Below are positions 17,412 to 46,285 of a stretch of DNA of 64,000 nt, one piece after another. The DNA comes from Shinella kummerowiae (GTDB lineage Bacteria; Pseudomonadota; Alphaproteobacteria; Rhizobiales; Rhizobiaceae): positions 682,001 to 746,000 of the forward strand of contig NZ_WUMK01000001.1 of NCBI RefSeq assembly GCF_009827055.1, given 5' to 3'. A model generated the notes under the pieces. That model saw only the letters and a list, made by a program, of their open reading frames with translations, was not told the DNA's origin and did not search any database. Numbering within the stretch: position 1 is the first letter of the stretch; the number at the start of each line of letters is the position of its first letter. Made by a program: the position numbers and the translations under genes.

Positions 17412-20894
<3,483 letters not shown>

Positions 20895-20916
20895 GGCTAC
20901 ATGCCGATCGACGTAT

Positions 20917-20952
20917 AAAAAGAGCCGGGCGACGCTGTCGCCCGGCTCTTTT
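20917..20952. terminator. Bidirectional terminator between carB and udgX
   Basis: A near-perfect hairpin with arms AAAAGAGCCGGGCGAC and GTCGCCCGGCTCTTTT around a three-base loop. T runs on both strands allow it to end both carB and the convergent glycosylase operon, whose stop codon directly abuts it. Confidence 0.92.
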
Positions 20953-22418
20953 CATTGTTGGGCAGCAAGGGTCTCGCCCAGATGCTTGATCAGCTGCATG
21001 TCCTCGACAAAGAGGGCGTGCTGACGTTTGCGCGCGGCTTCATCCGGCAGGCGCAGCAGATAGGAAGGGTGGATGGTCGGGTAGAGCACGATGTTGCGCT
21101 CCATGGTGATCGGCTTGCCGCGGAGCTGGCTGAGCGGTTTCTGTTCCCCGCTCAGCGCGAAGACGGCAGTGGCACCGAGCGCCACGATCAGGCGCGGCTT
21201 GACGAGTTCGACTTCCTTCGCCAGCCACCAGCGGCAATGTTCGATATCTCCCCGGTCCGGCTTCTGGTGAATACGCCGCTTGCCGCGCGGCTCATATTTG
21301 AAATGTTTGACCGCATTGGTGAGATAAAGGCCGTCCCGGGCGATATCCGCCTCTTTCAGCACCGCATCGAAGACCTTGCCGGCCGGGCCGACGAACGGGC
21401 GGCCGGCCAGATCCTCCTGGTCGCCCGGCTGTTCGCCGACCATCATGACGCGTGCATCCTGCGGCCCTTCGCCGAAGACGGTCTGTGTCGCCGTGCAATG
21501 CAGCGGGCAGCGCGTGCAGTGGCGTGCCTCTTCGCGCAGCGCCGCGATCGTACCGGGGCTGACGGGAACGAGTTGCGGCTCCGCATGAGCCGCGTCCTGA
21601 AGCCGGTAATGGAACAGCGGCGGGTCGCTGGCCGCCCGTTCTGCCATGGCCCGCACATTGGCCTCGGCATTGGCGATCATCTCTGGAATGAGGTCGGCCT
21701 CCGGCAGGTTGCGCCAGTATTTCTTCGGCATTTCTGTCTGCATGGCCTTCAACTTCAGCCGTGCGGGGTTGAATATGCTCGAATAATAGGTGCGCCAGAG
21801 TTCATCCGTCGGGTCGCCGTGGCCGGGGTTTTCGGCGGGCCGCACATCGAAGATCAGGCTCTCGCCATCCCAGCTTGCCGTCCCCATGGGCGTGGCGATA
21901 ATCCAGTCCATGTCGGCAAAGCGCCGGCGGAAGAAGGGCGCGGTGCGGGCGACGATGAAATGCGTTGGCTCGAACCAGGCAAAGAACCGGCGCCGCCCCT
22001 CCGCCACACCGGCGATTTCCTTGAAACGCACGAAGGCCGTCATCTTGTGGCTGTCGCGGTGAACGTTCTTGGCGAGGAGCCGCGCCCAGGCCACGTCCTT
22101 GTCGGCCGCCAGCTCCAGCAGGCGACGGTCCGATTGCAGGCGCCACAGCAGGCGATAGAGCAGATGATACCGACCCGGCTCCGTATGGCAGACCACGGCT
22201 TCGGCCAGCGGCAGGAAACCGGGCGGTACGGTGAGCGGCGGCGCGATGCCATCCGCTTTCGGCAATGGCGGCGGCACGACGGCTTCAAAGAGCTCCTCCT
22301 CCAGACCGTAGACGCGCCAATCCGCCTCGCGCGGCGAAACGCCGGCGGTCGCGAGCATACGTGCTGCATCCCGCCATTCGGAAAAATCGCCCCGGCCAAG
22401 AAGAGGGATCGTGTACAT
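20952..22418 (-). CDS. UdgX-type uracil-DNA glycosylase fused to DUF4130 domain
   Basis: A 488-residue fusion. Residues 1 to about 250 are a DUF4130 domain (for example [29 protein letters not shown]); residues about 285-488 are a UdgX-type glycosylase. The 4Fe-4S cysteines fit C301, C304, C308 and C395; the active-site motif GEQPGDQED is at 328-336; the insertion loop KRRIHQ at 380-385 carries the His384 equivalent to the UdgX His that bonds covalently to uracil-containing [12 protein letters not shown] is the leucine-loop region. Its ATG overlaps the TGA of the upstream radical SAM gene (TGATG), so the two are translationally coupled. Known UdgX binds uracil-DNA suicidally; the DUF4130 role is unknown. 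Confidence 0.93.
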
Positions 22419-23647
22419 CAGAGCAGGGAAAGCTGTTCCGGCTTGCGGGCGAACAGCGTCTTCAGATCCGCGCGATCGGCAAGCCGCCGCGGCGTCCAGC
22501 CATCCGCCTCGATGAAGGCACGCACCTTGCGCAGCGATACGCCGAGCCGGGCGAGATCCTCCAACCGCAGACGACGGAACCGGCGGCTGGAGACAATGGC
22601 ATCGACCGTCTTGGTGCCAAGGCCCGGAACGCGCAGCAGCGTCTCCCGCTCCGCGCGATTGACATCCACGGGAAAGGCGTGCCGGTTTGCCAGCGCCCAG
22701 GCAAGTTTCGGATCCATGTCGAGATCCAGCATGCCGCCGGTCGATGCGGTGATTTCGTCCACGCCGAAGCCGTAGAACCGATAAAGCCAGTCCGCCTGAT
22801 AAAGACGATGCTCGCGCACCAGCGGCGGTTTGATCAGCGGCAGAATGCGGGACGCATCCGGAATGGGACTGAAGGCCGAATAATAGACGCGCTTCAGTCC
22901 ATAGCTGCCATAGAGCCGCGCACTGGTCTTCAGAATGGTCGCATCGTCCGCACCATCGGCGCCAACAATCATCTGTGTGCTCTGCCCGCCCGGCACGAAG
23001 CGCTTGCGCTTTTTCGTCTGCAAGGTCGGATCGTCGGCCGCCTCAATCTTCCGGCGCAGGTCCCCCATGGCGCGGCGAATGCCCGACGGCCGCTTTTCCG
23101 GCGCGAACCGGCTGATGCCCGCATCCGTCGGCAATTCGATGTTGAGCGAGAGGCGATCGGCGTAAAGCCCCGCCTCCTCTATCAGTTCCGGTGCCGCATC
23201 GGGAATGGACTTCAGATGGATATAGCCACGAAAGCCGTGGGTGGTGCGCAGCTCCCGCGCCACGCGCACCATCTCGCCCATCGTGTGGTCCGGCGAGCGG
23301 ATAATGCCGGAAGACAGGAACAGCCCCTCGATATAGTTGCGCCGGTAGAATTCCAGCATCAGCCAAACCACCTCCTCCGGCGTGAACCGGGCGCGCTCCA
23401 CATTGCTGGAGGAGCGGTTGATGCAATAGGCGCAATCGAAGATGCAGAAGTTGGTGAGCAGGATCTTCAGGAGCGAAATGCATCGCCCATCCGGCGCATA
23501 GGCGTGGCAGATACCGGCCCCTTCCGTCGAGCCGAGTCCGCCGGACGTTACGGAATCACGCTTTACCGTTCCGCTTGACGCGCAGGAGGCATCGTATTTG
23601 GCGGCATCCGACAGGACGGCCAAGCGTTGCTGGAGCGATTTCTTCAT
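22418..23647 (-). CDS. Radical SAM protein, putative DNA modification/repair (UDG-linked)
   Basis: A 409-residue radical S-adenosylmethionine enzyme. The iron-sulfur motif is C-x3-C-x2-C in NFCIFDCAYC (Cys68, Cys72, Cys75), followed by a TIM-barrel core (LFLSSGIIRSPDHTMGEM, HLKSIPDA, SLNIELP). Residues about 339-356 (RVPGLGTKTVDAIVSS) are a helix-hairpin-helix DNA-binding motif. The family is known only by its strict pairing with the downstream UDG/DUF4130 protein and is annotated as putative DNA modification/repair; the reaction is unknown to me. It is the first gene of the operon and has an SOS box just upstream of its start. No ribosome-binding site is visible, consistent with a very short leader. 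Confidence 0.93.
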   Translation of the reverse strand: MKKSLQQRLAVLSDAAKYDASCASSGTVKRDSVTSGGLGSTEGAGICHAYAPDGRCISLLKILLTNFCIFDCAYCINRSSSNVERARFTPEEVVWLMLEFYRRNYIEGLFLSSGIIRSPDHTMGEMVRVARELRTTHGFRGYIHLKSIPDAAPELIEEAGLYADRLSLNIELPTDAGISRFAPEKRPSGIRRAMGDLRRKIEAADDPTLQTKKRKRFVPGGQSTQMIVGADGADDATILKTSARLYGSYGLKRVYYSAFSPIPDASRILPLIKPPLVREHRLYQADWLYRFYGFGVDEITASTGGMLDLDMDPKLAWALANRHAFPVDVNRAERETLLRVPGLGTKTVDAIVSSRRFRRLRLEDLARLGVSLRKVRAFIEADGWTPRRLADRADLKTLFARKPEQLSLL

Positions 23648-23653
23648 ATTTGT

Positions 23654-23668
23654 TCACTATATGTTCTT
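23654..23668 (-). promoter_or_regulatory. LexA operator (SOS box) of the radical SAM-udgX operon
   Basis: The plus strand reads GTTCACTATATGTTC, a perfect match to the alphaproteobacterial LexA direct repeat GTTC-N7-GTTC. It ends 7 bases upstream of the radical SAM start codon and overlaps a likely -10 (TATAGT on the minus strand, 23658-23663), so LexA binding would block transcription until DNA damage. Confidence 0.85.
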
Positions 23669-23684
23669 CATCGCTTGGTCAACG
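23658..23684 (-). promoter_or_regulatory. Probable promoter of the SOS operon
   Basis: On the minus strand TTGACC (23679-23684) is followed after 15 bases by TATAGT (23658-23663). Transcription would start within about 3 bases of the ATG, giving a leaderless or nearly leaderless message, which fits the missing Shine-Dalgarno sequence. The spacer is shorter than ideal. Confidence 0.55.
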
Positions 23685-46203: not shown

Positions 46204-46285
46204 CGTTCAGCCTCCGTTCAGCCTTGTTCTTCTAGTTTGCTCTCGTCATCTACCGGCGATGGGCCGGATCCAAAGGAACGACGTC

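Follow-up and report, generated by a model that had tools for sequence, protein, structure and literature searches.

A radical SAM-DUF4130 gene pair with a LexA-type box, a conserved clamp-type tail and extra invariant cysteines in Shinella kummerowiae and related loci: a putative DNA-repair module

Introduction

What would a radical S-adenosylmethionine (SAM) enzyme do in an operon with a uracil-DNA glycosylase (UDG)-type protein, behind a motif resembling an SOS box? This question is raised by a two-gene unit of Shinella kummerowiae (Rhizobiaceae), located within a 64,000-nucleotide stretch of contig NZ_WUMK01000001.1 (positions 682,001 to 746,000; hereafter the window, in whose numbering all coordinates are given). 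The unit encodes a radical SAM protein and a fusion of DUF4130 to UdgX, and an earlier, sequence-only reading of it proposed damage-induced expression of a radical enzyme that processes a DNA lesion or the covalent UdgX-DNA adduct. Comparison with several hundred genomes and loci leads us to lean towards a LexA-repressed, clamp-tethered radical SAM DNA-repair pair, in which UdgX would serve as a uracil-capturing arm. Two features that the earlier reading does not contain, a beta-clamp-type C-terminus and three extra invariant cysteines, point in this direction.

By family profiles, the unit is a member of an already known, uncharacterised family, TIGR03916/TIGR03915 (rSAM_link_UDG and SAM_7_link_chp; COG4277 in the operon naming of PMC8565304). 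Both window proteins score well over the family cut-offs, and their gene order and coupling are the same as in the loci retrieved here, with no essential difference. An SOS-controlled system is not in itself new, because the prediction is already in print: the Clostridium acetobutylicum CAC3343-CAC3344 operon is putatively LexA-controlled according to footprinting and expression data (PMC3828012), and a Bacteroidetes COG1573-COG4277 operon is placed in LexA networks by PMC8565304, which gives alphaproteobacterial and Bacteroidetes forms of the LexA box and cites LexA control also for Verrucomicrobia and Alphaproteobacteria (Caulobacter). Other radical SAM genes of LexA regulons described in print (Streptomyces, Gram-positives, Balneolaeota) may or may not belong to TIGR03916. 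In Acinetobacter Tol 5, desiccation (8% relative humidity) raises the expression of a radical SAM protein that carries this annotation (PMC13130816).

DUF4130 is found by name in a single paper of the searched literature, where it is a predicted mutagenesis-related enzyme linked to SplB-like radical SAM proteins and to UDGs (PMC3765255). Within the same literature, which leaves out most subscription papers, no paper joins UdgX with radical SAM enzymes or radical SAM enzymes with the beta clamp, the nine papers containing both radical SAM and sliding clamp include none on the TIGR03916 family, judged by title, and no function is reported for the pair.

Results

Both genes lie on the minus strand, with the radical SAM stop and the DUF4130-UdgX start overlapping by one base, and family profiles bear out the gene assignments of the sequence-only reading. 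The first gene (22418..23647) encodes a 409-amino-acid protein that scores 565 bits against TIGR03916 in an NCBIfam scan (cut-off 343.5) and 33.4 bits against Pfam Radical_SAM (cut-off 29.5). The second (20952..22418) encodes a fusion of 488 amino acids, whose N-terminal part matches TIGR03915 (residues 9-241, 198 bits, cut-off 112.25) and the DUF4130 model PF13566 (129.5 bits vs a cut-off of 27), and whose C-terminal part matches the UdgX model TIGR03914 (residues 243-477, 327.9 bits, cut-off 189.95), with the Pfam UDG model also above cut-off. The C-x3-C-x2-C motif proposed for the radical SAM protein is present (C68, C72 and C75), as is the intact UdgX histidine motif (KRRIH at 380-384, together with GEQPG); the proposed C-terminal helix-hairpin-helix (HhH), at about 326-356, stands less firmly, with Pfam models below cut-off only (HHH_3, 21.9 vs 27).

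The perfect GTTC-N7-GTTC reported directly before the start is likewise in place, at 23652..23666, reading GAACATATAGTGAAC (GAAC-N7-GAAC) on the coding minus strand and ending 4 bp before the radical SAM ATG. Significance from the window count alone was rejected, the motif occurring twice vs 1.85 times expected; the second copy (GTTCAGCCTCCGTTC, 46205-46219) has a spacer without A/T richness and is probably due to chance. The box is instead significant by position and conservation, because relatives keep it in three partly overlapping sets of loci with common descent. In the GTDB-family set (the window and the 30 top scorers of the family search), 31/31 loci have it no more than 350 bp ahead of their radical SAM match, vs 3 sites in 82.5 kb downstream in the same loci; within the phylum sample it precedes 24/24 loci that belong to the class of the window, which is itself one of them. 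The third set holds 80 named loci, mostly alphaproteobacterial and the best of 585 confirmed places; 76 of these have the box within 250 bp upstream, with its end 1-47 bp ahead of the start, whereas 817 kb elsewhere contain 26 sites (0.008 expected per stretch). The spacer of 117 boxes in the main orientation favours A-T-A at places 1-3 (102, 102 and 103 of 117). Of the four named loci with no perfect box, two (L063 and L082) show a near box on inspection by eye, L128 (Acidovorax) has a relaxed CTG-N10-CAG, and L129 (Xanthomonas) has no recognised box upstream.

Other box forms are found outside the class. Eight proteobacterial loci (L031, L051, L055, L058, L128, L129, L142 and L153) include three with a perfect CTGT-N8-ACAG, and among Clostridia, L145 (Lachnospira) has twin GAAC-N4-GTTY boxes at the start codon, L143 has two GAAC-N4-GTTC, 156 and 185 bp upstream, and L144 has a looser box; we take CTGT-N8-ACAG, CTG-N10-CAG and GAAC-N4-GTTY to be the LexA boxes of other classes. 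The host genome carries lexA, with a similar box, GAACACATATGGAAC, upstream; no exact box was found upstream of recA, where a half-kept GAAC-N7-GTAC can be seen by eye. Reading of the sequence also yields a possible promoter on the minus strand (23656..23682), with TTGACC (23682-23677) and TATAGT (23661-23656) separated by 15 nucleotides, a pair that a consensus promoter scan did not report. As TATAGT lies inside the box, the leader would be very short or absent if this promoter is real. TTGnC occurs no more than 28 bp before the box in 45/117 loci, and in 31 of these it starts 16-18 bp before the box.

The radical SAM protein of the window ends in EQLSLL, which contains a beta-clamp-type motif, QLSLL (residues 405-409; codons at 22421..22435, minus strand), to be compared with the beta-binding consensus Q-L-x-L-F, usually C-terminal (PMC4549789). 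The search pattern was fixed after a handful of tails had been inspected and before the first count. That count (last 30 residues, third place allowed to be missing; L090 and L140 skipped as short or cut), which includes the window copy L046, L146 (a repeat of the L142 tail) and other near-copies, gave 126 matches in 144 tails vs 3.3 expected from shuffles. Under strict terms (an obligatory third place, a search of the last 35 residues, and removal of L046, L146, L147 and all identical rows), the QLxLF-type pattern is present in 125 of 151 aligned tails; 24 more fit a looser pattern (QQSLF, QGSLF, QRSLF, QASLF, QLGFGF, QLSLAL and the like) drawn up once the strict misses were known, and the remaining two (L151, L159) have QLSLF or QLSMF further inside the protein.

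Q405 is kept in all 151 proteins, and among 27 representatives below 70% identity, Q is conserved in 27, L406 in 24, L408 in 23 and F or L at 409 in 23, next to a variable flank. Within the last 12 residues, the motif is present in 71/79 named radical SAM proteins and in none of 77 DUF4130 proteins or 432 other open reading frames (ORFs; at least 150 amino acids) of the same loci; one DUF4130 protein has a match inside its last 35 residues. Conservation of such a tail in TIGR03916 proteins appears to be new, as far as searched.

The same protein has six cysteines in all. C68, C72 and C75, which would bind the SAM cluster, are present in 151/151 aligned proteins, and so are C22, C47, C56 and H48. 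The invariance of three further cysteines and a histidine suggests a second, N-terminal iron-sulfur (Fe-S) cluster, bound by C22, C47 and C56; this conservation, too, seems not to have been described in the literature searched. Both the tail and the extra cysteines are thus features of the sampled TIGR03916 family, not of the window alone. An AlphaFold model of the protein has a predicted local distance difference test score (pLDDT) of 82.4 and a predicted template modelling score (pTM) of 0.81. The best 50 of 66 PDB fold matches (E up to 0.001) are, judging by their titles, radical SAM enzymes, among them HydE, PFL-AE, lipoyl synthase, biotin synthase, MiaB and viperin, with template modelling (TM) scores by query of 0.30-0.44.

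Pairing was assessed in a GTDB-family sample of 121 genomes and a phylum sample of 299. In the family, the radical SAM gene exceeds the cut-off in 54 genomes and DUF4130 in 53, all within those 54; the radical SAM gene without DUF4130 is a partial match in a genome that is 76% complete (G043). One further genome with a match below cut-off (G082, locus L164) holds a decayed module, with remnants of radical SAM and UdgX. Across the phylum, radical SAM exceeds the cut-off in 53/299 genomes and DUF4130 in 56/299, and all 53 radical SAM genomes have both.

DUF4130 of the window is 12-21% identical to six homologues from other lineages; within the radical SAM set, identity to a clostridial sequence is 48-56%. 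Nine DUF4130 residues are invariant in 11 sequences (R131, F132, P151, R166, I174, W208, R220, P231 and E240). From its fast evolution and these residues we infer, weakly, that DUF4130 is a recognition or scaffold partner and not a classical metal nuclease. A PDB fold search of the fusion gave UDG-type matches only among the best 50 listed; PHROGs gave no DUF4130 match, and PADLOC gave no match.

In Mycobacterium smegmatis, UdgX captures uracil or abasic sites through the histidine of its R-loop. The UdgX domain of the window is 46-48% identical to this protein and keeps GEQPG, KRRIH and HPSYLLR; unlike it, the domain is fused behind DUF4130 and shares its LexA-type operon with radical SAM. 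Among UdgX fusions the cross-linking histidine is kept in 72/73 and GEQPG in 70/73. The fusion is not universal: in Bacteroides, Pusillibacter, Lachnospira, Spirosoma, Parabacteroides and Acinetobacter records, the gene annotated next after radical SAM encodes a TIGR03915 protein that stands alone. When 20 loci (Bacteroidota, Clostridia, Acinetobacter, gut contigs, one proteobacterium, five unfused named loci and the fused positive control L153) were searched with profiles, DUF4130 was present in all 20 and UdgX in the control only, leaving 0/19 with a UdgX match outside the fused set. Among named loci, the window included, 5 of 78 closed DUF4130 proteins have no UdgX.

Conversely, UdgX exceeds the cut-off in 62/121 family genomes, 52 with the pair and 10 without it, and one genome (G089) has the pair without UdgX. 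The control genome, Caulobacter vibrioides, gives matches to all three families. In a midpoint-rooted tree of 48 radical SAM rows, the UdgX fusion requires four changes, which can be read as a single gain and three losses, and the ten rows that lack the fusion (Clostridia, Bacteroidota, Acinetobacter and one proteobacterium) form one side of the tree with 100/100 support. These data point to radical SAM plus DUF4130 as the core, to which UdgX was probably fused in one clade before several losses, a view that is new as far as searched. As a separate observation, G073 (L169) has UdgX in one open frame and a short DUF4130 remnant before it in another.

Downstream of the unit, a GC-rich hairpin with flanking T runs on both strands (20915..20955; -33.9 kcal/mol, z -9.3) sits between the operon end and a convergent gene ending at 20894, which from its translation we take to be carB. 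The hairpin is probably a bidirectional terminator; the consensus scan mentioned above for the promoter did not list it, and an Rfam scan gave no match. Elsewhere, an ORF of about 160 amino acids, hemerythrin-like by eye, lies between the two genes in L122, L132 and L137 (gap 550-571 bp). The radical SAM gene is found in 158 PLSDB records, 58 of them Phaeobacter, and the pair is often on replicons filed as plasmids. Two viral searches for relatives returned the same two contigs, one match being a fragment. A record named 'Acinetobacter phage MD-2021a' (L146) has the pair beside glyS, glyQ and other host-like genes, and is for that reason probably bacterial DNA filed as phage.

Discussion

How might the pair work? 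LexA-type control, operon structure and a DNA-repair role, all proposed by the sequence-only reading, are well supported by comparative evidence; UdgX-adduct processing, the other part of that proposal, is disfavoured as the core function because UdgX is missing from 19/19 searched loci outside the fused set and occurs without the pair in 10/121 genomes. With a LexA box at the promoter, as conservation indicates, LexA would repress the unit and DNA damage should derepress both genes. The QLSLL/QLxLF tail would then dock the radical SAM protein on the beta sliding clamp while its HhH domain helps to hold DNA, a combination that would place its action at replication forks or gaps. There, the SAM [4Fe-4S] cluster and the second cluster, as the invariant cysteines suggest, would drive radical chemistry on damaged or blocked DNA. 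DUF4130, to judge from co-occurrence, would be the fast-evolving partner, probably recognising DNA or substrate, and UdgX, fused to it in a proteobacterial clade, would add capture of uracil or abasic sites through the R-loop histidine.

Stated in full, this reading describes a two-cluster radical SAM clamp client that, in the SOS response, acts at stalled forks or gaps, where it repairs or remodels lesions directly, with DUF4130 presenting the DNA and UdgX holding uracil or abasic sites covalently in many Proteobacteria; in this detailed form we hold it tentatively, at somewhat below an even chance. ImuB, DNA polymerase IV (Pol IV) and UmuC offer a precedent in that they are SOS-induced and carry a short clamp-binding motif. 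The window tail is alike by consensus (PMC4549789), but it belongs to a radical enzyme of unrelated fold, not to a polymerase-type protein.

Several observations weigh against this reading. A short QLxLF tail is by itself no proof of clamp binding, and pLDDT falls below 50 at residues 23-43, between C22 and C47. Among the eight proteobacterial loci outside the class, four have no recognised box and one has the relaxed form alone; one of four clostridial loci (L151) has no recognised box; and the four Bacteroidota loci offer no more than a GGA-N5-TCC in L150, 211 bp upstream, and a loose match in L149. Co-occurrence, which the earlier reading suggested checking, holds in 53/53 DUF4130 genomes of the family sample and in 53/53 radical SAM genomes of the phylum sample, with exceptions. 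DUF4130 occurs without a radical SAM match in three genomes: G317 and G334, which have UdgX as well, and G403, where the match covers residues 1-224 only. In all three a box lies roughly 150-220 bp upstream. The partner can therefore outlive the radical SAM gene, which speaks against an obligate pair. In G022 both genes are retained about 500 kb apart, and a LexA-type box scan of the split DUF4130-UdgX gene gave nothing above chance.

Four other explanations compete with a clamp-tethered repair enzyme. A spore-photoproduct-lyase-like enzyme that reverses UV photoproducts, in line with the SplB-like character that Aravind and colleagues gave DUF4130 partners, is improbable in our estimate, even with the shared C-x3-C-x2-C motif, a DNA-binding HhH and the association of DUF4130 with SplB-like radical SAM photolyases (PMC3765255). 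SplB, too, is a radical SAM enzyme that repairs DNA, and in several species it is under SOS regulation (PMC8565304), but unlike SplB, the window protein has the extra cysteines, the HhH and the clamp-type tail, with no SplB family match among the matches listed. Photoproduct lyase is also absent among the best 50 of 66 PDB fold matches, and the pair is present in gut-type anaerobes, which have little UV exposure. Nor is any spore photoproduct lyase model, of which NCBIfam presumably holds some, among the NCBIfam matches listed for six members (for one of them, the best 25 of 27).

We give equally little credence to a nucleic-acid modification enzyme, inserting sulfur in the manner of MiaB or LipA, for example, in place of repair. 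Lipoyl synthase, biotin synthase and MiaB are among the fold matches listed, and both MiaB and lipoyl synthase have three N-terminal cysteines outside the SAM motif, as does the window protein; however, the C-x24-C-x8-C spacing is not the one known for these two enzymes, fold matches among radical SAM cores are generic, and damage-type regulation with a clamp-type tail fits repair.

Uracil base-excision repair against ribonucleotide misincorporation by SOS polymerases, as proposed for COG1573-COG4277 (PMC8565304), fares no better: it accounts for the UDG domain and for SOS control, but UdgX captures rather than turns over (PMC10359453), the pair is without a UDG domain in all 19 searched loci, and the radical chemistry would go unused. 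Least probable of all is a role for the radical SAM protein in resolving the covalent adduct that its operon partner forms with DNA through UdgX, as the operon, the fusion and the conserved cross-linking histidine might suggest, since DUF4130 lacks UdgX in those 19 loci and in five closed named proteins, UdgX occurs apart from the pair, and UdgX changes four times on the tree while the pair stays.

The pair is widespread, occurring in 54/121 genomes of the GTDB family and 53/299 across the phylum, and also in Bacteroidota and Clostridia. For a clamp-tethered radical repair enzyme, the tail would indicate the site of action and the extra cysteines the cofactor to look for, so that an orphan pair of SOS genes turns into a definite question for biochemistry, with emphasis moving off UdgX, which appears to be an add-on. 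If this reading is true, a replisome-coupled pathway of radical repair would be common to gut anaerobes and soil aerobes.

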